Origin: Apostichopus japonicus
Lineage: Eukaryota; Echinodermata; Holothuroidea; Aspidochirotida; Stichopodidae
Assembly (NCBI RefSeq): GCF_037975245.1
Contig: NC_092577.1
Location: 31,943,398 to 32,007,397 of the forward strand
DNA length: 64,000 nt
Reading direction: 5' to 3'
Positions 3,822 through 34,160 of the stretch are shown in pieces; the first letter of the stretch is position 1, and the number at the start of each line of letters is the position of its first letter. The notes below the pieces were generated by a model that searched no databases, was not told the DNA's origin, and saw nothing but the letters and a program-made list of their open reading frames with translations. A program made the translations under genes and the position numbers.

Positions 3822-6353
3822 AACTCGTCAAAATGACAAAATTCAGAAAAATGACGTTTTGCCGAGTTAAACAACTGGTCAAAACGACAAAATTATTAAA
3901 TTTGCCGAGATGCAACAAGTCGTCAAAATGAAAAAAAATATTGAAAATTGACGTTTTGCTGAGATACAACAAATCGTCAAAATGACAAAATTCTGAAAAT
4001 TGATGTTTTGCCGAGATACAAGTCGTCAAAATGAAAAAAAAAAAGGAAATTGACGTTTTGCTGAGATACAATAACTCATCAAAATGACAAAAATCTGAAA
4101 ATTGACGTTTTGCCGAAATACAACAAGTCGCTAAAATGACAAAAATCTGAAAATTGACGTTTTGCTGAGATACAACAAGTCGTCAAAATGATAAAATTCT
4201 GAAAATTGATGTTTTGCCGAGATACAACAAGTCGTCAAAATGAAAAAATATTGAAAATTGACGTTTTGCTGAGATACAATAACTCATCAAAATGACAAAA
4301 AAATGAAAATTGACGTTTTGCCGAAATACAACAAGTCGCCAAAATGACAAAAATCTGAAAATTGACGTTTTTGCCGAGATACAACAAGTCGTCAAAATGA
4401 CAAAAATCTGAAAATTGACGTTTTGCCGAAATACAACAAGTCGTGAAAATGACAAAATATTGAAAATTGACGTTTTGCTGAGATACAACAAGTCGTCAAA
4501 ATGACAAAATTCTGAAAATTGATGTTTTGCCGAGATACAAGTCGTCAAAATGAAAAAAAAAAAGGAAATTGACGTTTTGCTGAGATACAATAACTCATCA
4601 AAATGACAAAAATCTGAAAATTGACGTTTTGCCGAAATACAACAAGTCGCTAAAATGACAAAAATCTGAAAATTGACGTTTTGCTGAGATACAACAAGTC
4701 GTCAAAATGATAAAATTCTGAAAATTGATGTTTTGCCGAGATACAACAAGTCGTCAAAATGAAAAAATATTGAAAATTGACGTTTTGCTGAGATACAATA
4801 ACTCATCAAAATGACAAAAAAATGAAAATTGACGTTTTGCCGAAATACAACAAGTCGCCAAAATGACAAAAATCTGAAAATTGACGTTTTTGCCGAGATA
4901 CAACAAGTCGTCAAAATGACAAAAATCTGAAAATTGACGTTTTGCCGAAATACAACAAGTCGTGAAAATGACAAAATATTGAAAATTGACGTTTTGCTGA
5001 GATACAACAAGTCGTCAAAATGACAAAAATCTGAAAATTGACGTTTTGCCAAAATAAAACAAGTCGCCAAAATGACAAAAATCTGAAAATTGACGTTTTG
5101 CCGCGATACAGCAAGTCTTCAAAATGACAAAATTCTGAAAATTGACGTTTTGCCGAGATACAACAAGTCGTCAAAATGACAAAATATTGAAAATTGACGT
5201 TTTGCTGAGATACAACAAGTCGTCAAAATGACAAAATATTGAAAATTGACGTTTTGCTGAGATACTGCAAGTCGTCAAAATGACAAAATTCTGAAAATTG
5301 ACGTTTTGCCGCGATACAACAAGTCATCAAAATGACAAAAATCTGAAAACTGACGTTTTGCCGAAATAAAACAAGTCGCCAAAATGACAAAAATCTGAAA
5401 ATTGATGTTTTGCCGCGATACAACAAGTCGTCAAAATGACAAAATATTGAAAATTGACGTTTTGCTGAGATACAACAAGTCGTCAAAATGACAAAATATT
5501 GAAAATTGACGTTTTGCTGAGATACAACAAGTCGTCAAAATGATAAAATTCTGAAAATTGATGTTTTGCCGAGATACAACAAGTCGTCAAAATGAAAAAA
5601 TATTGAAAATTGACGTTTTTGCCGAGATACAACGAGTCGTCAAAATGACAAAAATCTGAAAATTGACGTTTTGCCGAAATACAACAAGTCGTGAAAATGA
5701 CAAAATATTGAAAATTGACGTTTTGCTGAGATACAACAAGTCGTCAAAATGACAAAAATCTGAAAATTGACGTTTTGCCGAAATAAAACAAGTCGCCAAA
5801 ATGACAAAAATCTGAAAATTGACGTTTTGCCGCGATACAGCAAGTCGTCAAAATGACAAAAATCTGAAAATTGACGTTTTGCCGAGATACAACAAGTCGT
5901 CAAAATGACAAAATATTGAAAATTGACGTTTTGCTGAGATACAACAAGTCGTCAAAATGATAAAATTCTGAAAATTGATGTTTTGCCGAGATACAACAAG
6001 TCGTCAAAATGAAAAAATATTGAAAATTGACGTTTTTGCCGAGATACAACAAGTCGTGAAAATGACAAAATATTGAAAATTGACGTTTTGCCGAAATACA
6101 ACAAGTCGTGAAAATGACAAAATATTGATAATTGACGTTTTGCTGAGATACAACAAGTCGTCAAAATGCCAAAAATCTGAAAATTGACGTTTTGCCGAAA
6201 TAAAACAAGTCGCCAAAATGACAAAAATCTGAAAATTGACGTTTTGCCGCGATACAGCAAGTCTTCAAAATGACAAAATTCTGAAAATTGACGTTTTGCC
6301 GAGATACAACAACTCGTAATAATGACAAAAATAAGATATTTGACGTTTTACTC
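3822..6353. repeat. Satellite array, 52-bp unit, about 49 copies
   Basis: Head-to-tail copies of a 52-bp unit whose core is gaaaattgacgttttgcc followed by gagatacaacaagtcgtc. Variants differ at a few sites (ctgaga, ccgaaa, ccgcga). A block of ten units is itself duplicated: 4022-4540 and 4541-5059 match with an offset of 519 bp, giving a higher-order repeat. The unit length is not a multiple of three and the minus strand happens to lack stops, which produces long but meaningless open frames. Confidence 0.95.
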
Positions 6354-8714: not shown

Positions 8715-10232
8715 TGCGGCCTTTTGATCAAGAGATGCATCTTGACACGCCTTGTAGAACTGCTGGCAAGAAACAAGATGCTGTGTGGCATTCACTACAC
8801 AATTGTGATGTCCCCCGAATGATGCTGGACCTCGTTATAATGTGTAAGCTCTGCACAGCTACAGGTATATACAGAAATGCTGTGTGTGGCATTGAACTGA
8901 TACTTTTGACATCTGGAGTGATGCAGAACCTCATTATAATATACAAGCCTTGCACGGCTGCTGTCAAATACAGAGCTACTCTGTGTGGCATTCAATACAT
9001 AACTGGGATGTCCCCCGAGTGATGCAGGACCTCACTATAATGTACAAGCCTTGTACGGCTGCTGTCAAATACAGAGCTACTCTGTGTGGCATTCAATACA
9101 TCACTGGGATGTCCCCGGAGTGATGCAGGACCTCACTATAATGTACAAGCCTTGTACGGCTGCTGTCAAATACAGAGCTACTCTGTGTGGCATTCAATAC
9201 ATCACTGTGATGTCCTCTTAGTGATGCAGGACCTCACTATAACGTACAAGCCTTGTACGGCTGCTGTCAAATACAGAGTTACTCTGTGTGGCATTCAATA
9301 CATAACTGGGATGTCCCCGGAGTGATGCAGGACCTCACTATAATGTACAAGCCTTGTACGGCTGCTGTCAAATACAGAGCTACTCTGTGTGGCATTCAAT
9401 ACATAAGTGGGATGTTCCCCGAGTGATGCAGGACCTCACTATAATGTACAATCCTTGTACGGCTGCTGTCAAATACAGAGCTACTCTGTGTGGCATTCAA
9501 TACATAATTGGGATGTCCCCCGAGTGATGCAGGACCCTACTATAGTGTACAAGCCTTGTACGGCTGCTGTCAAATACAGAGCTAGTCTGTATGGCATTCA
9601 ATACATCACTGTGATGTCCCCTTAGTGATGCAGGACCTCACTATAATGTACAACCCTTGTACGGTTACTGTCAAATACAGAGCTACTCTGTGTGGCATTC
9701 AATTCATCACTGTGATGTCCCCAGAGTGATGCAGGACCTCACTATAATGTACAAGCCTTGTACGGCTGCTGTCAAATACAGAGCTCCTCTGTGTGGCATT
9801 CAATACATAACTGGGATGTCCCCGGAGTGATGCAAGACCTCACTATAATGTACAAGCCTTGTACCACTGCTGTCAAATACAGAGCTACCCTGTGTGGCAT
9901 TCAATACATAAGTGGGATGTCCCCCGAGTGATGCAGGACCTCACTGTAATGTACAATCCTTGTACGGCTGCTGTCAAATACAGAGCTACTCTGTGTGGCA
10001 TTCAATACATAACTGGGATGTCCCCCGAGTGATGCAGGACCCTACTATAGTGTACAAGCCTTGTACGGCTGCTGTCAAATACAGAGCTAGTCTGTATGGC
10101 ATTCAATACATCACTGTGATGACCCCTTAGTGATGCAGGACCTCACTATAATGTACAAGCCTTGTACGGCTGCTGTCAAATACAGAGCTACCCTGTGTGG
10201 CATTAAATACATAACTGGGATTGTGATCTTTG
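8715..10232. repeat. Satellite array, 101-bp unit, about 15 copies
   Basis: The landmark gatgcagg recurs at 9021, 9122 and 9223 and onward every 101 bp. The first two or three units are more diverged. A five-unit block is duplicated: a variant marked aggaccctactatagtg occurs at 9531 and 10036, an offset of 505 bp. Both strands show 60-100-codon open frames, but the unit length is not divisible by three, so they are not genes. The array ends about 310 bp beyond the TRAPPC9 stop codon. Confidence 0.95.
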
Positions 10233-10544: not shown

Positions 10545-13500
10545 CTATTCTGCTACGATGACGTCGATGGGCGGCCTGAACCTCCAAAGTCTACCACTCT
10601 TGACATCTTGCGGCGAGTCCGGCAAATCGTCGGTGGCCTTCCTCTGGAGACAGGTTAAAGTTATCTTGTAATGGCCGGGATACAAGTACGTGAATGTACA
10701 TACGTGAGAAGGGAGGGTTGCAGCCGACAACTGGAAGAGAAGAGAAAAACAAATTCGTTTTATAGTAATAATAAGTAATATTTATACAAAATAAAATAAA
10801 ACTGTTAGCAAACTGCTTATCCACTAGAGAGCCTGTGTAATAGAATGTGTAAAAGTAAGTTGGCCTAACGTTTCGATCCTAGCAGGATCTTCTTCAGAGG
10901 CTAAAAAAGAGAAAAGCCTCTGAAGAAGATCCTGCTAGTATCAAAACGTCAGGCCAACTTTTACGTAATATTTATACAGCGCATTATCAGCAAAGCAGCT
11001 CAAAGTGCTTTATAAATGTAAAACCGAAAAACAAATAGTAACAAAAACTTAAATATTAAATATATAGAACCAATAAGGCATAAAATGTAAAAGCCTCAGC
11101 AACAATAAAACAACCGTACTAAACGATAGTAAAAAAAGCCCTAAACGCATATAGTCCAATACAAATTCAGAGTATGAAAATAGTAAAATAGCTATAAAAC
11201 AAGAATACACAAAAGATTAAATCATAGTCAATGTTTAAATATAAATAAGTATGAGAAACAATAGTACAGTAAGACTGTACTATTTTTTTTTTAATACTGA
11301 AAATTATACTGAAAATTATCAAGGATATAATATCTATCAAACGCAACCAAAGAGATTACATTCATGTTGAACAGCTCCCCCTACACGAGTGAGAAAATTA
11401 TGCTGTTTCTTTCGAAGATATTCAAGTTTCAAACGCTTATACACCTCAACACAGGGAATTAACATTTACTGTTTTCCGACCCCGTTTTAATGAAAGCTTT
11501 AGGTAGACAGGACCTTGGAGGAAAGGGGAAAGGGGTGGTCAGGGAGGAGAGGAGAGGGTATTTTGAGGGAGTGGCTCCAAGAGGTTGGGAAACCATGTTC
11601 TAGAATGCCTTATGATTTTTTTTTACAGTAAGATTGTAATATTGAAGTTCTTATATTCATTAACGGCCTCTAGCATATGGCAAATATGCAAAAGAAAAAG
11701 AATACAGGATAAATATTGTCCAGCTTGATGGCACAAGATAAGTGACATTCCCTACTGGTTGTTAAGGCAATGTGAAGCCCTATCTTCAAACAGTCTTGCA
11801 TGGGAGAGTGTGTACATGCCTACAGCTTTGCTGACTTTTTAATAGAAAATATACAAGGTCCTACTAACAAATGTGGAACCAAAACAAAATAATACAGCCA
11901 ACATGCATAGCTACCAGAGAAGCGATAGCGTATCTCTTAAAACTTTTCTTCAGACGCACCATTTGGAATTGACTCTGGAAGCACCCCACGCATAAAATAC
12001 TCTCAGAAATGTCTGGAGTCACAGCACCGTTGCAATTATCTTGGAATGGACAAACTTCAAACTGGACCGTGTCTGAGTGGGCATCTAAAAAAGGGACGAA
12101 GATAAAGCTGGATAAACTGACAGAAAAATCTAAATGACAACATTGTAAGCAACAAGAGATAAACTTTGAGCTCTTCTAGCTCAAAATCTAAATGGTCATA
12201 GTGGCAAAAGTTGAATGTGCTGTGATAGCCCCAGTCATCAGCTATCATATGGTGGGTAGGACATGTCAGTTAAAAACTTGTCAATTAATATCTACGCTCC
12301 ATCCACCTTGGAAAATGACAAGTTTATGTGTGTAAGTTGTCCATGGGGAGCAATTAATTTTTGTGTTACACCTTTATTGTTATAATTGGGTTGCTTCACA
12401 CAGCTGCTGTATGCCTGTGGACATGGACACCAATTATAACAAACCTAATTATGGAACCCATCAGTACCCAAACCTAGGATTAAATATGTGCTCCTTTTGA
12501 AAAATTGACAAGGAGTCAATCGAGACACCTTTTTTGGGACTGCTACGTAACGGCCAATTTTTATCCTTAATGTCGAAATGCGTATCTTAAAATAAGCAAT
12601 TCTTTTTCTCCAAACAAGATATCTTTTTCGGTTTTGGCAACGCTTACTGTCACCCTTACAACTTTTTAATTATCCACTGATACAGAAATCTTAAACAGTT
12701 ACCTATTGCAAGTGTTACAATGAATATCACATAATCATTACCTACAGAAGGTGTTACAGAAATCTTAAACAGTTACCTATTGCAAGTGTTACAATGAATA
12801 TCACATAATCGTTACCTACCGAAAGTGTTACAGAAATCTTAAACAGTTACCTATTGCAAGTGTTACAATTAATATCACATAATCGTTACCTACAGAAGGT
12901 GTTACAGAAATCTTAAGCAGTTACATATTGCAAGTGTTACAATGAATATCACATAATCATTACCTACAGAAGATGTCACAGAAATCTTAAACAGTTACAT
13001 ATTGCAAGTGTTACAATCAATATCACATAATCGTTACCTACAGAAGGTGTTACAGAAATCTTAAACAGTTACCTATTGCAAGTGTTACAATTAATATCAC
13101 ATAATCGTTACCTACAGAAGGTGTTACAGAAATCTTAAACAGTTACCTATTGCAAGTGTTACAATGAATATCACATAATCATTACCTATCGTAGGTGTCA
13201 CAGAGACCTTAAACAGTTACCTATTGCAAGTGTTACAATTAATAAGGGGTTAATCAACGGTCTAGCGTGCGTTACTCACAGGATTAATGCACGATCGGGG
13301 GATAATGCAAGCGATGCACGAGGGCGGAGCCCGAGTTCATCCAGCGATAGCATTAACACCCGGAGTGCATTAATCATGTGAGTAACGCACGCTAGACCGT
13401 TGATTAACCCCGTTCATTCATACACTACCATTTGTGTGGGGGAAAAATCATAAAACAAAACATTTTTGGTTACATATAACCAAAGATTTATTAAAGTGAT

Positions 13501-16500
13501 GCCCCGTAATTTCACCGTGCGTTACTCACAGGATTAACCACGGTCAGCTGACCTGAATGGACCAATAGGATTTAGGAATCTTTACTAGGTATGAATGAAT
13601 ATCACATAATCGTTACCTACAGAAGGTGTTACAGAAATCTTAAACAGTTACCTATTGCAAGTGTTACAATGAATATCACATAATCATTACCTATCGTAGG
13701 TGTCACAGAGACTCTCATACTGATAGTCTCGCCCACCAGTATGTGAAAGGTATCGTGTGGATAAAATGATGAACCGTTCATCTCTAAATGCCACTCGATA
13801 GGACAGAAATCAATGTTGTCCAGCATGGATTCTGAAATGCTAATCTCAGCTGTAGATGCAAACCCTTCCTTCTCCAGAGCATGGTAAAGAAAAGTGAGTC
13901 AAAGAAAGTAGGTAGACTAAATATTTAAAGAAAAAAGGAAGGAAACCTCCGGAATGAAGAACATGACCCCGCTTCATTATTAATCCAGGCTGCAACTTTA
14001 ACATGTGCAAATCAAAGGTGCTAATGGGACACTTGCCTATCCACACAGTCTTATTGAATTAGTGTTATAATATCTTGCATGATCGTTACAAAAATGGTTA
14101 AACCTCAAATGTCAATTTTGGTGAACAAGAAACCCTGCTTGACAGGGAGTAAAGAAGAAAAACATCAAGAGGGGAACACGCCTCTGTTATGATCAATAAT
14201 ACAGACGTAGTAATTTTTTAGCTCCTACCTCTCCTCTTCCCCTGTTGGTTTCTTTCTTTCTTTTCTCCATCCCTTGTCTACTAATCCCCTACATCTATCT
14301 CTTTGTGTTCACCATGCTCATTAACCTGTCTGTATTCTGTGCTAGGATCGAAACGTCAGGCCAACTTACTTTTACACATTCTCTTACACAGGCTCTCTAG
14401 TGGATAAGCAGTTTGCTAACAGTTTTATTTCATTTTGACGTAGTAATTTAAGCGACATGTATGGTTAAAATTTGCTACAGTCTTCGTGATAACGACGACA
14501 CACGGCGATGAAGAGGTCGTTAATTATTTAGTAAAGGATATACATTGCCACCTGATGTCCACGAGACTGGCTAGTTGTTGTGCATAAAGTTCGTTGACCA
14601 CTTGATAAAAACCTCTCAGGGTCGATGGCTTCCCTCCTTTAGAATTCACGCCGTCCACTGAAAACCTGTCCACGGTTATTGCCAATCTGTGGATATACAT
14701 GCATGAATAAGAGATTGAATTTTGTCTTTGTTGTTTCAAAAATAAAATAATATTAGTTTTACCCCCCCCACCCCCTCCCAAAAAAAAAATAATAATATGG
14801 TACAAATTATGATTTTTCATATTTGGTTTATAAAGGAGAATGAAGACTATCAAAGCATTTCTCCATCCCACACATGAGCATTAGATGCATTTACTTAACA
14901 CTCAAAAGTAAACACTTTGCTTAAACACAGAGAGCATTGTGGTCAAGTGGTTAAGGCAGTAGACTGGTGATCTAAGGATTACAGGTCCGAGCCCTGGCCA
15001 GATCATTGCGTTGTGTCCTTGGGCAAGGCACTTTATCTCCATTGCCTATCTTCACCCAGGTGTATAAATGGGGACTTGCGAGGTAACTTGTATATATAGT
15101 TGCGTGCGCCGGTTTCTGGCTGCACCCTATGGGAAGTCCCCTGGGGACACGTGGTTGTGGTTCACTGTGGTGTGGCGTGTAGGTGTGACAAGTTACCAAT
15201 GACCAAGGCTAAGTTGTACACGCTATGGTACATTTAGCGCCTTTGAACAACTTCTGTTGAATTTGGCGTTATATAAATGTCTTCTGATTGATTGATTGAT
15301 TGAACACAAATCGAACCAGTGACATCAGCAATACAAATCCTGGTGCTCTACCAATGGAGCAAGCCTGGGCTCTCTCTGTGGTAAACCATTTTGACCGTTT
15401 GTGACAGATTTTCCAGACAGAAAGAAAATTAGAGAAACAAGAACAAAAGATCAGGAAATGTCAAGAACAGATTGGGCCATTCACAAGTAGTAGATATCGC
15501 AGGAAAAATGTGATTCAAATTGAGTAAGGGCTAGAAATGTCACCTTTTACATGCCCTTGTCTCCAGAAGGAGATTATTCCCTTCACCGTATTGCACTGTG
15601 ACCTCGTGAGAAGTAGCGTTTATCACATCCAGCAAGAGATGAAACTGCCTGGGACTGCATTATAGAGAAGAAGATGAATAATAGCAAGACGAAATGGTGA
15701 AAGATACCTTAAACTAAAATATTTTATTAATGATATTTTTTTGAGGGGGAAGGGGGATTTAAATCTTATGTCAGACCACACCCATTACCTTTACCAATAT
15801 TTCCAAATCTTTACTACCAAGTAGCCCACCCACAATCTGAAGAAGAAGAAACAAATATTACATGCAAGCACTTAAGAAAGATTCATTGAATATGGTGGAC
15901 TGTTTGATAGGTAACATCAAATGTCCAAGATACAATTTTTTTATGTGTATATTTTTGTTTTACGTCTACAGTAGGGTCTGGTGTGAACATGTCAAAACAG
16001 AAGCATTTCAATGAACCAACTTGGCTTTGTCTAACTGTTTAAGGGGCAGGTCGAGAGTGGGTTTGGTGTGAACATGTCAAAACAGAGGCATTTCAATTAA
16101 CCAACTTGGCTTTGTCTCACAGTTTGGGAGGCAAGTCTAGATTGTTGTTTGGTGTGAACATGTCAAAACAGAGGAATTTCAGTTAACCAACTTGGCATTG
16201 TCTAACTGTTTAATTAAGGGGCAGGTCGAGGGTGGGTCTGGTGTGAACATGCTATAAAGTGTGACTTACTCTGATGCTGGTAGTGTTGTCCAATGCATGA
16301 ATGCTATAGAGGGTTTGATTTCTGCTCGTAGCAGTAGGGTTGTTATCCTGCAATAATCTTCCGTGCCACCCTCTCCACCCCTGTAGCGAAATTTCAGAGT
16401 TGCTTCGATAATCTGCGAGGAGAAAAGAGAAGAAATAGTCAAAAGGTTGAAGATCCCGACCAACTTTTAGAAGCTAAAGATAAAAATTTACGTAAATAAA

Positions 16501-22500: not shown

Positions 22501-25500
22501 GGAAACTGCAAGTGTCGGAATTTCACCGATAAATACAAATGTTCGTGGACTAGAAGGAAACGCTGACACAAACAGCACCACAGAGCTGATGTTTATACCG
22601 TAGATACTTTGAAACATTTACCACGATTGGCAACTATTTGTTATTGATCTTTGTCATGGTGATGGCATTTCATACTCACTTTACTGTAAGGAATACTCTG
22701 AATGGATGGTATCTAGGGCAATGTGAGTATACCACAAAAAAGGGCATTGCTAGCTGGACACAGCAAAAAGGTCATACCAGACATATTTTACAAAATTAGC
22801 ATGACATGCTAACTGTTGGTCATGGATATAAACGTCACCATCGATTTGTTTCATTCTCTTAATACTTTTGATACTGCAGTGAATGCAATGAATGTTAACA
22901 ATTCACCATAGGCAGACTTATGATAGAAACCGTTCATACTCACTTCACTGTAGGGAATTTTGTGAATGAAATGGTATTGGTGGAAGAGAGTATATGACAA
23001 AATGGGAGCAGCTAGGAAGACACAGCAAGAAGTTCATACCACTAATATATTCAAAACTAATATGAATACCAATTATTTGTCATACATATTCAACGTCAAT
23101 GTCATACTTATTCAAATCAATGTCATACATATTCGATTCAATGTCATACATATTCAATGTTTGCATCAATCTGTCAGCCAGTTGGGACAATTTCCTACTG
23201 CTAATACCTCTCTAAACTGTACTCCAATATCTCATGCTTCAAAGCACTGGTATTGACAGTACAGACAGTTCCTATACCTTGATCTGATAGAAACATGATA
23301 TTCATACTGCTCGTACTGACAATACAAGTGCTCTGAAGTGGGACAGTACAGTATAGAAATAAATTGTCCCAACTGGGTGAAACTGTTCATTCTACTGAAT
23401 ACTTTCCATACTGCAGTGAGTGCAGAGAATGCTAAACATTCTTCACAGACAGACTTATGATAGGGACCACTCATACTCACTTTACTGTAGGGAATATTCT
23501 TAATGCATGGTATGACAAAATGGGAGCAGCTAGGAAGACACAGCAAGAAGTTCATAACACTAATATATCCAAACTAATATGAATACCAATTATTTGTCAT
23601 ACATATTCAATGTCATACATATTCAATTTAATGTCATACATATTCAATGTTTGCATTGAAATCTGTTCATTCTCCTGAATACTTTCCATACTGCAGTGAA
23701 TGCTAAACATTCATCACAGACAGACTTATGATAGAGACCGCTCATACTCACTTTACTGTAGGGAATATTGTGAATGGTACAGGAGGGAGGATAAGACCAG
23801 AGTCCACGCAGAGAGGCTGATGCGTTCCTGGTTCTTCGTTGGTAATCGCCTCCAGGGTTGAGACGGCTTCTGCGAGGTCAGATTCGGACAGGTCATCGTG
23901 AAAGCCGTGCAGAAGGAATGATAGATACCTGAAGGAAAGAGGAAGAGAGAGGTTGACCACGGACTGAGATAAAAGATGAAATCAAATCAAAACAAATTGA
24001 TAAACTGTTGTACAACGGTCGGCTGGATTTAATCTCTGGATACCTCAATGGCCAGTGTTGAATTTGCTTTCGATACAGTTGCTGCATCTTTGGGTCAAAA
24101 CGAACATGTAAGAGCATTTTCTATCGTCGGCATGAGAGATTTTGGGTGAAATTTGGTGACATTTTTTTATGGATGAATCTGAAAACAGCACTGTCAGTGA
24201 ATGTCCTCATGGCATATTGATATTAATCAATGGCATATAAGGGGAAAGAACTCTTCAATTGAAAGCATCCCTACATCATTGACAGTAAAAAAGATGAAAG
24301 TTGCGGTTGCTTCTACGTTTTAAATATCAAACTCTGAGGACTAATCAAGACCTTTTGTACCTGATAGCAAGTTTCTTGTCCCCCAGCTGTCGGGATGTGT
24401 ATACTAACTCATTCAGGAGTCTTATCTGTAGGGCCGGCCAGCCGAATCTTGGCTCTGCAAACATGGAGAATAGAAGAACATATTGACATGCTTAAAATTG
24501 TAACAAGCATTGCACTGCAACTCACATAGCAGTTTTCCCCTCGGTTTTGTTACGTATATATATATATAAACATACATGTATGTCTATATATATATATATA
24601 TAAACATACATGTATGTCTATATATATATATCTATATATATATATTTATATATATATGTATGTCTATATGTATACAAGTATAATGGTAAGATAATTAGTA
24701 AATATGGGTAACTTCTAAGATAACAATTTCTTATATTTTCAATCTGAATGGTGAAACAGAGCTTCATATTTTAATATCCTGTGGCAAATGAATTGCAGAG
24801 AGACAATTTCATTAACTCAGATGTTTACATTCACTGATATATTGGTCTAACATTCACACCATGTCGGTGAAATAATTTAATAATTTTAGGAGCCGTTTTT
24901 GCAGAAAGGTTCCTTTCAGCAACCTTTCTACATCATGTCTTTCTCATGCTAAAATAGGAATGCATGACCTCTGCAACAAAACAAACATGTTCTGAGGAAA
25001 AGTGCAAAGTAAATTTAGGGTACATCCCTAATGTCTCACCTTTTCTGATATCTCGAGAATCTAGTTTCAATTTGTAACCGTCCATTGTCTCCAGAAGCAG
25101 GTCATGACACTAGCCAAAAAAATATATGAAAATATGAAAATCGAAGAAATTCATCCTTGAGATTTTCAATTTGCTTCTACTTTATCTTCGAGTTGGCATT
25201 TGCTTCTACGAGAGAAATTTGATTTATTTTTTGTTCGAATATGGGATGAGGGGAGGGGTGGGAGGAAAAGGGCAGATGGGGAGATAATTAATTGGCGTAT
25301 CATTAATTAAGAAAATCAAATGTAAAAAAAGAAAAAGATGCATGAATTAAAATTATTGCTCCGTGAGGTGAAAATTAGTGATCTACATACACAGAGCAAA
25401 AACAGATTGTTTTTAATTAATTTCATAAGAAGTAACATATTTTGCTTGACGGAATAATTTATCCGGTGATAGCATTGCAAAACGCTATACAATATGGCCT

Positions 25501-31500: not shown

Positions 31501-34160
31501 CACGCACAGAATACAGACATGAAAATATTATTAACAGACCGACAAAAGCAGATATATTAAGACCATATTAAGTATTTCTTTTTTTCCTATCTGTACATGA
31601 CCAAAAAAATTAACGGGCGAAAAAAAGGCTGAACCTAATTGCAAAATAGAAATCAGGACACTTCCCCCTCAAGTATTCCTTGTTTTTTGCATGAAACTGT
31701 TGAATTTTGCGATACTTAAATAGGCTACGCATGAACAATGATGTATGTGAAATACCACATTCTGCACATATGTGTGTACATGTGACATTTAAGTACTATG
31801 CATGACCATGTATGTGAAATTCCATATACTGCACTTACATGAGTACATGTGATAAAATTACTATGCAATACTGATGAAATTAAAGGGAGTGAAGACTCGC
31901 GCACAAAGAAACGTCTGATGCCGGTCATCTGACCAAGTTTCGAATGAGGTGTAACAGAAGTGTTAGACACCACCATCGATCCCAGAAAATACACAAGGTA
32001 TCACAAGTCTTCAATGCCTTTAAAGCATGGCACAAGTTTGCTAGAGATTATGTCATGATCGGAAGATACCAAATAATAGAAGAATATGTGATACTATACG
32101 TACCTCCCATCCACATCCAATCGTTAGCCCCTCTCAATATCTCCAACGCCGTCTGGTAGTGACCAAAAGCCTCTTGAGTCATTCCAGCCATGAGTGTCAA
32201 ATCTGCTAGATGCTTCTTCATTCGACCTTGCACTTTACGCTTGAAATTTCTGCAAACAGAAAAGATTCCAAAGTTCATACCACTTAGTATGTTGCTTTCA
32301 GAGCTGCTTTTCCTTTTAAAGCTAGCATGCCTCCTCAATTAATGCTGTAAATATTGATTTGAAGGATTGTATACGAATGACTTTAGGCAAACTTTTGGTC
32401 ATGATGTGTTATTACTGAAAACACTTCTTATCAAGGTAAACTTACCTTGACATTTTACCTACATTACCTCTTTGTCAAGGCTAACCTTACACTATTTGCA
32501 ACAATTTATATCAAGGTAATGCTACCTTACTTACACTATGTATCAAGGCTGACCATACACTCTTTGCAACAATTCATATCAAGGTAATCTTACCTTTATA
32601 TTACCTACAGTACCTCTGTATCAAGGCTTAATTATCAAGGCACTATTTGCAACACACAATTCATATCAAGGTAATCTCAACTTTTTACTTACCTACAGTA
32701 CCTCTGTATCAAGGCTTAATTATCAAGGCACTATTTGCAACACACAATTCATATCAAGGTAATCTCAACTTTTTACTTACCTACAGTACCTCTGCATCAA
32801 GGCTTACTAATCAAGGCACAATTTGCAACACACAATTCATATCATTGGTAATTTTACCTTGTCAATTTACCTACAGTACCTCTTTATCAAGGCTGACCAT
32901 ACACTCTTTGCAACAGTTCATATCAGATTATACTACCTTTATCCTTACTTGCACTATGTATCAGGCTTACCAAGCACTATTAGCAACAGCAATTCATAGA
33001 AAGGTAATCTTACCTTGTCCCTTTACCTACAGTACCTCTGTATCAAGGCTTACCATACACTATTTGCAACAAACAATTTATAATAATGATAATGATAATA
33101 ATTACAGTAGTCTTTATATAGCGCAGAATCCAACCTAAAGGTTGCTCAATGCGCTTTACTGATGTGTGTAGCATTTAGAAAATAAGTAAGTTTTAATAGC
33201 ATGTTTGAATTGTTCAAGTGAATCAATTTCCCACAGATGGACTGACAGCCAATTCCATAAGTGCGGGCAGAATAGCAGAAACTGCGATCACCAAAGGTTC
33301 TTGTGTGTGTCACAGGAACAGTAAGTTAATAGAGGTATGGGGAACGAGTAGGTCTATCCATTGTTCGCTCTTGGATAAGGTCGTGAAGATATTCGGGCGT
33401 ACCATACTTCAATGCCCTGAACACCAATATCAGAATTTCATATCAAGGTAATCTTACCTGTATACTTACCTACTCTTTGAATATTTCTGTGATAAATCAC
33501 TTGCAGGTTCCATACTTACCTGTACTCTTATCGTCTTCTCATATCTCATCTGTCGGGTCAAACTTACCTACTCTCAGTATCGATGCCGACCATATCCTTC
33601 TTTTCGAACGGCACCATCAAGAGAGGAAGTTTATCGCTCCGGTCTTTCAGTCTCTCCAGTCTCTTCGATTCCAAAACCCAAAACAGGGAAGAGCCAAAGT
33701 CCTTGACACGATCCTCCAACTGTTCGCACTCTTCCACGTTTTCGAAGAGGAAAACCCCCGCCGGGACTCCGTTCGAGGTCTTCTCGGCTTCCTCCGCTAG
33801 CATGCCGAAGACGAAACACCTGGAGTCGTAGAGGGAGCTGTTGTATTTATCCTTCAGAGTCTTATAGTTTGCGTACACGTTGGCGAGTTCGATCTCCGAG
33901 GACGCTTTCCCCAGACAGATCAGGCCGGTGATCCTCCTGTGTCCTTGGAACTCTCCCCAGTCGCTGTTCTCCACGTGGACGATCCGCTTGTATCTCAACC
34001 AGACGTGTTTCTCCGGATGAGGCGGCGGAACGTAGGTGACGCTCATGATCCTCTCCATGACCCGGCTGAAAGACCGGCCCTTGGGTTGTCCAAAGGGCTT
34101 GATGAGGACCAGTAGTGACTGGTGGTCCTCGGCCCTCTGGTTGTAGTCGGCGATGCTCAT
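10545..34160 (-). CDS. TRAPPC9: TRAPPC9 (NIBP/Trs120), TRAPPII complex subunit 9, complete
   Basis: Trs120-family subunit of the TRAPPII tethering and Rab-GEF complex, acting in Golgi and endosomal traffic; the mammalian protein also binds NIK and IKK-beta. Coding exons in transcript order: 33568-34160, 32104-32249, 31181-31330, 30535-30635, 29770-29838, 25823-26023, 25040-25109, 24361-24454, 23752-23928, 21754-21905, 21153-21238, 20394-20520, 19094-19307, 17776-17858, 17431-17574, 16721-16866, 16270-16412, 15544-15654, 14544-14686, 13691-13849, 11960-12084, 10545-10730. They sum to 3420 bases, 1139 residues plus stop, against about 1148 in human, and all phases agree. Landmarks are the N-terminus ([17 protein letters not shown]), [69 protein letters not shown] and [10 protein letters not shown]. 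The first coding exon starts just after an acceptor, so an untranslated exon lies upstream. Intron 1, 9 and 20 repeats copy exon ends. Confidence 0.96.
10790..10970. mobile_element. Dispersed repeat with inverted hammerhead-like motifs (Penelope-like remnant?)
   Basis: Contains two oppositely oriented copies, about 12 bp apart, of a motif reading agcctctgaagaagatcc then tgctaggatcgaaacgt and aggcc. The minus-strand copy is at about 10861-10903 and the plus-strand copy at about 10914-10956. The left flank (ctgttagcaaactgcttatc) is shared with 14365-14435 and 31359-31400. Such CTGAAGA...GAAAC blocks are known from terminal repeats of Penelope-like retroelements. No reverse transcriptase is present. 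Confidence 0.6.
12675..13735. repeat. Tandem array, 74-bp unit, overlapping the 3' end of TRAPPC9 exon 20
   Basis: Units at 12682, 12756, 12830 and onward every 74 bp to about 13242, then a foldback insertion, then units from about 13590 to the exon. Each unit on the gene strand contains a sequence like CTGTAACACCTTCTGTAG followed by GTAACG, the counterpart of the genuine exon 20 end TCTCTGTGACACCTACGATAG followed by GTAATG (donor at 13690/13691). The copy at about 13190-13212 is almost identical to the real exon end. Confidence 0.9.
13246..13411. mobile_element. Foldback or MITE-like hairpin inside the 74-bp array
   Basis: Two 46-nt arms (from ggggttaatcaacggtctag, and its complement) match at all but one position around a centre of about 74 bp. 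A third partial copy of the arm (cgtgcgttactcacaggatt) lies at about 13517-13537. The pair cgttcattcatac (13411) and gtatgaatga (13588) frames the remainder, suggesting a composite insertion from about 13246 to 13595 that interrupts one 74-bp unit. Confidence 0.75.
14225..14435. mobile_element. Dispersed repeat related to 10790-10970, 3' half only
   Basis: Contains gctaggatcgaaacgtcagg and the shared flank that ends in agcagtttgctaacagtttt, in opposite orientation to the copies at 10790 and 31359. The ctgaaga half of the hammerhead-like core is missing, so this copy is broken. Confidence 0.6.
14930..15302 (+). mobile_element. tRNA-derived SINE in TRAPPC9 intron 18
   Basis: The head resembles a tRNA promoter: an A-box-like tggtcaagtggttaaggc and a B-box-like ggtccgagccc. 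It is followed by the conserved-looking body tgtgtccttgggcaaggcac and a tail of (attg)n at about 15288-15302. It is inserted antisense to TRAPPC9. It is not a functional tRNA, because no full cloverleaf can be drawn. Confidence 0.75.
15972..16258. repeat. Tandem repeat, 85-89-bp unit, next to TRAPPC9 exon 17 donor
   Basis: The landmark gtgtgaacatgtcaaaacag starts at 15981, 16066 and 16152, with a shortened fourth start at 16241. The array stops about 12 bp before the exon 17 splice donor (exon edge 16270), but the unit holds no exon sequence. Confidence 0.85.
17995..18795. repeat. Polypyrimidine minisatellite (ccctctcctcatt)n in TRAPPC9 intron 13
   Basis: About 800 bp of almost pure C/T on the plus strand, built from imperfect copies of ctctcctcattccc. 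The TRAPPC9 transcript therefore contains a long G/A tract here. The open frame rich in Pro, Ser and Leu at 18351-18860 is an artefact of composition. Confidence 0.9.
20567..21055. repeat. Two small tandem arrays in TRAPPC9 intron 11
   Basis: First, three copies of an 18-bp unit (gttgaaacaatttgaa) at about 20567-20620. Then a short SINE head (ggagtgttagctcagtgg) at 20627-20645. Then about 14 copies of a 28-30-bp unit (aacaaagttcggtgtcattc plus ggaactta) at 20650-21055. Confidence 0.85.
22670..23775. repeat. Repeated copies of TRAPPC9 exon 9 end plus donor, in intron 9
   Basis: The real exon 9 end with its donor lies at 23741-23775. Near-identical copies occur at about 22672-22705, 22932-22965 and 23469-23502, each with the equivalent of the last codons (FTIFPTVK in the real exon) followed by gtgagtatgag. 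The copies sit in units of about 260-272 bp. The longer 537-bp interval is explained by the dispersed repeat at 23166-23340. Confidence 0.88.
23166..23340. repeat. Dispersed repeat, copy 2 (first copy at 8215-8385)
   Basis: Shares cagccagttggga, cagttcctat and tagaaacatgatattcatac in the same order as 8215-8385. It lies between two of the exon 9-derived copies. Confidence 0.7.
24545..24672. repeat. (TA)n microsatellite in TRAPPC9 intron 7
   Basis: Runs of ta broken by a repeated acatacatgtatgtc motif. Confidence 0.9.
30830..30943 (-). other. Possible symmetric cassette exon of TRAPPC9 (uncertain)
   Basis: An open stretch of 114 bases encodes 38 residues, including [20 protein letters not shown], and ends at a donor (gtattg). 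Both boundaries would be phase 1, matching the phase-1 junction between exons 3 and 4, so inclusion keeps the frame. The acceptor (gcaag) lacks a pyrimidine tract. The human protein has a longer linker at this place. It is not counted in the 22-exon model. Confidence 0.3.
31359..31475. mobile_element. Dispersed repeat with hammerhead-like motif, TRAPPC9 intron 2
   Basis: Same flank as the element at 10790 (aaataaaactgttagcaaac) and, on the minus strand at about 31429-31470, agcctctgaagaagatcctg then ctaggatcgaaacatcaggc. The residue after gaaac differs (at for gt) from the 10.9-kb copy. Confidence 0.6.
31875..31985. repeat. Dispersed repeat, copy 1 (inverse copy at 57065-57175)
   Basis: Begins gggagtgaagactcg and runs through ttcgaatgaggtgtaacaga to ttagacaccaccatcgatc. 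The reverse complement of this order is found at 57065-57175. The family is not recognised. Confidence 0.7.
32400..33545. repeat. Imperfect tandem array in TRAPPC9 intron 1, derived from exon 1 end
   Basis: About ten diverged units of 68-89 bp with tatcaaggtaatcttacc, tttacctacagtacctctg and tatcaaggctgaccatacac. Units run from 32400 to 33075 and resume at 33432-33545, up to the exon 1 donor (33567/33568). On the gene strand they resemble the exon 1 end (GGTCGGCATCGATACTGAGA, then GTAG and GTAAGT). A different element interrupts the array at 33076-33431. Confidence 0.75.
33076..33431. mobile_element. Short dispersed element nested in the intron 1 array
   Basis: Starts with (ataatg)n and tttatatagcgcagaatcc, contains gctcaatgcgctttac, and has an interior that recalls the element at 50777-51130 (both contain an aattcca block about 150 bp in). 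The ends are set by the point where the surrounding array stops and resumes. It is probably a non-autonomous retroelement. Confidence 0.5.

Follow-up and report, generated by a model that had tools for sequence, protein, structure and literature searches.

How can the end of an exon, together with its splice donor, come to be repeated many times over in the intron that follows? This question is raised by intron 20 of TRAPPC9 in the sea cucumber Apostichopus japonicus. The locus lies in a stretch of 64,000 nucleotides (NC_092577.1, positions 31,943,398 to 32,007,397), here called the window and numbered from its first letter. Very probably, the array in intron 20 is a mirage, i.e. a minisatellite whose unit crosses an exon-intron boundary, and arose from the exon by the history proposed below.

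The TRAPPC9 gene around exon 20

TRAPPC9 is encoded on the minus strand, as are all features below unless stated otherwise; its exons were numbered by our own count. The Pfam family PF08626 (TRAPPC9-Trs120) matched exon 2 above the cut-off and exon 1 below threshold. In a genome search with this profile, exon 2 was the sole match, and one TRAPPC9 locus was met in the genome. The human TRAPPC9 sequence used as query is approximate, which applies to every human comparison in this text. In tblastn, this protein aligned to most exons from 34160 down to about 11870. Exon 21 gave a weak match (E 0.086) and exons 14, 16, 19 and 20 gave none. These four exons were defined by splice signals and an open frame, exons 19 and 20 additionally by comparisons of fused exons, the only ones that cover exon 20. 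Spliced exons 17-21 matched the C-terminal part of the human protein with E = 1e-34, and the fusion of exons 20-21 did so with E = 3e-07. When exon 20 and fused exons were run against Pfam and the PDB, nothing was matched, so that these databases supply no curated alignment across the exon 20/21 junction.

Exons 17 to 21 (16412-16270, 15654-15544, 14686-14544, 13849-13691 and 12084-11960) form a single open frame when spliced. Exon 20 (13691-13849) comprises 159 nt, is defined by frame-consistent splicing with its neighbours and ends in ...VSVTPTI at TAG|GTAATG. Exon 21 (11960-12084) is defined by open-frame splicing and its weak human match. The preliminary description had called the gene TRAPPC9 and the exon number 20, and had placed the donor GT at 13690. 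Pfam, the human protein and open-frame splicing agree on the gene, the exon number being that of our own count. The frame stays open with exons 17-19 and 21 on use of the donor at 13690. This is the likelier donor, and exon 20 most likely ends at 13691.

Anatomy of the array

In one assembly, TRF detected a 74-bp period with 7.6 copies and 94% matches at 12681-13244. An additional copy (13594-13712) adjoins the exon; it shares 99% identity with 13089-13207. The unit spans -22 to +52 around the exon 20 donor. It is dimeric, with halves of 39 and 35 nt, as confirmed by repeat search and site matching, and each half holds a version of the exon tail followed by a donor-like AG|GTAA. Successive sites are, consequently, 39 and 35 nt apart. 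Downstream of the true donor, 15 AG|GTAA sites were counted (8 A-type and 7 intact B-type), whereas two B halves have lost the motif. The unit adjoining the true donor (13594-13690) contains one site of each type, the B-type after 13652 and the A-type after 13617. The recurrence of the unit and the row of pseudo-5' splice sites noted before are borne out by the TRF copies, the copy next to the exon and the AG|GTAA sites; the second donor-like site of each unit had been overlooked.

Likewise new is a high-copy mobile element that splits the array at 13241-13599, as judged by genome matches and copy comparison; its ends are uncertain by a few bases, its length is about 357 bp by spacing, and no strand is assigned to it. 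It recurs with approximately 99% identity at 40 scored places, its own locus included, of 937 first-look candidates. The ends of the element match in eight compared copies, again including its own locus. A target-site duplication was not clear by eye in these eight copies, two of which have the same flanks. The element, about 360 bp long, contains internal inverted repeats, among them a 47-nt inverted repeat (98%) in its left part.

Mirages are characterised by a unit that spans the boundary, by splice signals in the copies (in lancelets in many, though not in all), by units that are homogenised within the array and less so at its edges, by undisturbed splicing and by length polymorphism, also somatic. 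In TRAPPC9, the unit does span the boundary and the repeat copies do carry splice signals. The six inner A units are identical to each other at 67-74 of 74 positions and to the true junction at 65-68 of 74; one inner unit matches the junction at 74/74. The A unit that the mobile element interrupts, with its site after 13617, was kept out of this range; its own value is 45-52/74.

Similarity between the array units and the exon tail

The last 22 nt of exon 20 (13691-13712) recur in the array units, as found by sequence matching. They agree with the eight A-type copies at 16-22 and with the seven intact B-type copies at 14-15 of 22 positions. Elsewhere in the window, on both strands and with the array region excluded, none of 125,694 positions reached at least 16/22 and two reached 15/22. 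When the comparison was confined to the final 17 nt, at least 13 positions were matched in 15 of 15 copies and nowhere else in the window. Compared with its own intron, the exon 20 junction attained 47/50, while the maximum in 200 first-order shuffles was 17. The exon-like part of the unit could have been no more similar to the exon than expected by chance, a possibility raised at the outset; the 17-nt comparison and the junction score of 47/50 speak against it.

One inner copy deserves separate mention. Located at 13093-13207 (site after 13186), it shows no difference from the true junction (13598-13712) along 115 bp, which reach from exon position -22 to intron position +93. The preliminary description had called a copy near 13190-13212 nearly identical to the real junction, and the identity is in fact complete over these 115 bp. 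The copy is chimeric: It is of exon type as far as -22 and consists of ordinary array sequence upstream of -22. A chimera of this kind is to be expected when the junction and an inner unit undergo unequal exchange or conversion. By its sequence, the 115-bp identity probably records a recent event of exchange that crossed the boundary.

Donor strength, reading frame and a possible 39-nt extension

A donor matrix was built from 48 donors of this genome, 17 of 21 from TRAPPC9 (without exons 6, 10, 20 and 21) and 31 of 41 from myosin genes. Ten myosin donors had been dropped, nine because their position had shifted by more than 10 nt and one because the site was poor. The presumed donor after 13691 scores 0.26, and two of the 48 donors lie at or below this value. 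A-type sites score 0.26 to 0.97 and B-type sites 2.38, the first quartile of the 48 donors being 3.1. All 15 array sites score at least as high as the presumed donor. Among the 123 GT sites of intron 20, the presumed donor included, 24 others equal or exceed it, and 15 of these are the array sites. As the presumed donor is among the weakest sampled, strength does not explain its choice. We infer that position, exon signals or the order of transcription must decide. The locus is a natural test of how the spliceosome chooses one donor among 16 similar ones.

The statement that use of any copy would shift the frame proved wrong. With two donor-like sites in every 74-bp dimer (39+35), 5 of the 15 array sites come to lie at offsets divisible by 3. 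Four of them lead into a stop codon. The nearest, at +39 (after 13652), keeps the frame open and is free of stops. Since an exon end at 13652 is likewise frame-open, the frame alone cannot settle which donor is used. If this first B-type donor were used, exon 20 would be extended in frame by 39 nt or 13 codons (13652-13690), a candidate extension suggested by frame and site score. The exon might thus end at 13652, constitutively or alternatively, with the first 39 nt of the array being exonic and TRAPPC9 longer by 13 residues. The open frame and the score of 2.38 versus 0.26 speak for such an end. However, the B-type score is itself below the first quartile of the 48 donors. Moreover, in comparison with human TRAPPC9, the 13652 form leaves a 13-residue gap at 30.0 bits, whereas the 13691 form aligns gap-free at 33.1 bits, which is a modest preference. 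We consider an end at 13652 doubtful. That the first half-unit serves as a 39-nt extension adding 13 residues to the C-terminal part, with an earlier tail (ISVTPSV) preserved as a fossil in the inner units, is rather unlikely. If this were true, the mirage would have made a new option at the protein level, a TRAPPC9 form with 13 added residues.

Origin and direction of the array

With the exon end at 13691, the following history is proposed. A tandem duplication would have captured roughly 22 nt from the end of exon 20 along with the beginning of the following intron. On the intron side, the dimeric array of 74-bp units would then have been generated by duplication of a half-unit (39+35 nt) and by subsequent rounds of slippage or unequal exchange. 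The exon may have remained functional because an exon-proximal donor was still used, so that everything beyond it would have been neutral intron sequence. At a later stage, an inner unit (13093-13207) would have acquired the present-day exon tail by exchange with the true junction. The mobile element may have split the array before or after this junction exchange. The similarity of the tail, the chimeric unit and the restriction of the copies to this locus support the earlier proposal that the array originated when sequence straddling the exon-intron boundary was duplicated or exchanged. The exon-to-array direction, the order of events, the use of the donor after 13691 and neutrality are what we infer beyond this.

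Two observations bear on the direction. First, the join of exons 20 and 21 is gap-free versus human TRAPPC9 in the fused comparisons. This means, the tail seems to be ancestrally placed, unlike a recent insertion. Second, exon 20 reads VSVTPTI where the A units would read ISVTPSV. The exon tail and the A units differ at six positions, none of which is a second codon position (chance 0.055). Together, the gap-free join and the codon-position pattern weakly favour a direction from exon to array. In the reverse order, the array would be older, and the tail of exon 20 would either have been replaced by an array unit or have grown into one. The 115-bp identity demonstrates exchange between exon and array and is itself directionless. 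The tail is little conserved, with VSVTPTI sharing 2 of 7 residues with VRLTNRS of the human protein, as would suit an older array. Against this stand the unchanged length relative to the human protein and, as a weak hint of coding constraint on the exon branch, the avoidance of second codon positions. An array that preceded the exon tail is accordingly judged improbable.

Frequency of junction duplications

To what extent exon junctions are duplicated elsewhere bears on whether the array needs a special explanation. TRAPPC9 itself appears to contain a second mirage (22901-23776). The 3' junction of exon 9 (23752-23928; aaa|GTGAGT) is duplicated in its own intron: A copy at 23421-23505, 271 bp downstream, has 93% identity to the true junction 23692-23776 over 85 nt, and a second copy at 22901-22968, 808 bp downstream, has 90% identity to 23709-23776 over 68 nt. 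In a myosin gene, an exon end near 10604148 (G000 C13; L024 5375-5720) is repeated with its donor 220 bp downstream, 72 of 75 exon nt being matched. By sequence, this copy represents a putative independent mirage.

Fifty-nine donors and as many acceptors (18 from TRAPPC9 and 41 from myosin genes in each case) were surveyed. The TRAPPC9 part covers 18 of 20 introns, without introns 10 and 11, and a few of its boundaries are doubtful, e.g. the exon 6 donor. The ten myosin regions were picked for compactness and are non-random; all 41 Pfam matches inside them were used, out of 70. Myosin boundaries were set at the closest plausible GT or AG next to the Pfam matches, and some of them are wrong. 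At a score of at least 30, 3/59 donors and 0/59 acceptors were duplicated. The background at the same score, counted downstream only, amounts to 9.6% in the TRAPPC9 span, 10.9% in the window and 9.3% in the myosin regions. In either direction, 151 of 814 intronic points of TRAPPC9 are duplicated, and of 216 exon-interior points none is; the intronic points come from 19 introns, with one intron too short to sample and intron 10 left out. Internal duplication of some kind was found in 8 of these 19 introns. At 9.5%, three or fewer duplicated donors have a chance of 0.18 and constitute no excess, and zero acceptors at 10% have a chance of 0.002, so that acceptors are, if anything, spared. Between donors and acceptors, there is no reliable difference (Fisher 0.24). 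These values are rough, as points that share an array depend on each other. With junctions not duplicated above nearby points (9-19%), the array requires no more than ordinary tandem duplication, which is tolerated as long as the upstream donor persists.

Other arrays were observed in the window. Intron 1 of TRAPPC9 contains many donor-like AGGTAAG motifs at 32425-33567, with an array at 32425-33072 and 33437-33473. A genome search with its part 32560-32920 returned four matches, all at its own locus. This array was rejected as a mirage, its junction similarity of 16 being equal to the shuffle maximum of 16. Between TRAPPC9 and a cytochrome P450 gene, there are a 52-bp array with 47 copies (3901-6349) and a 101-bp array with 14 copies (8781-10221).

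Alternatively, the array of intron 20 could be under selection as a sink for U1 or as a splicing regulator, a reading prompted by 15 decoy donors which all score at least as high as the presumed donor. The lack of an excess of duplicated junctions over the background in the above survey argues against it. So does the ordinary RNA fold (z -1.20 and -1.28), and Rfam yielded no match at the gathering score in 12000-14000. A selected function is, thus, very improbable.

The full 74-bp unit gave five matches in the 671-Mb genome, all at the TRAPPC9 locus, in a DNA search that passes over very common words and is by itself no proof of absence; the B half with at most three mismatches gave nine matches genome-wide, again all at this locus. 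That the array is a dispersed satellite or a transposon which landed next to the exon is hardly conceivable, since a mobile element does sit within it but neither the full unit nor the B half was found elsewhere in the genome.

Comparison with known systems

Mirage minisatellites are known from lancelets, where they have been described in Adh3, the globins BflGb6 and BflGb9, PGBD5 and troponin C and are said to leave splicing undisturbed (PMC3087553, PMC3902484). As judged by its unit and splice signals, the TRAPPC9 array probably belongs to this class. It shares with the lancelet mirages tandem units which span a boundary, many with AG/GT signals; the lancelet units are homogenised inside the array. 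It differs from the lancelet cases in its echinoderm host, its dimeric unit with two donor-like sites and the mobile-element insert, furthermore in a unit freshly exchanged with the exon and a nearest decoy that is in frame. The echinoderm origin agrees with the mitochondrial code: In COX1 on contig C35, the 10 AAA codons occupy positions at which Asn is expected, while ATA codons occupy Ile positions and AGA codons Ser positions. Lancelet mirages are reported at both 5' and 3' boundaries, whereas none was found at acceptors in our small survey. A search of literature outside subscription journals found no report of sea cucumber minisatellites at splice sites.

Two further systems are related. 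Internal tandem repeats at exon-intron boundaries have been described in human duplicated genes (De Grassi and Ciccarelli 2009, PMC2812944). They resemble the TRAPPC9 array in their location at boundaries and may create introns or activate cryptic sites. They are, however, variable and reside in recent segmental duplicates, as stated there, whereas TRAPPC9 is a conserved gene with one locus met. Introns can also be gained by tandem genomic duplication around AGGT (PMC4974935, PMC3443670). A stretch with AG|GT is duplicated in both situations. In contrast to intron gain as outlined there, the TRAPPC9 intron pre-exists, and its 5' edge was multiplied without a new intron. In the lancelet literature, mirages have been proposed as a route to new introns. 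Since our small echinoderm sample contained three affected junctions, spread over two genes, the data suggest that mirages are not an oddity of lancelets but arise incidentally through tandem duplication in deuterostome genomes rich in repeats.
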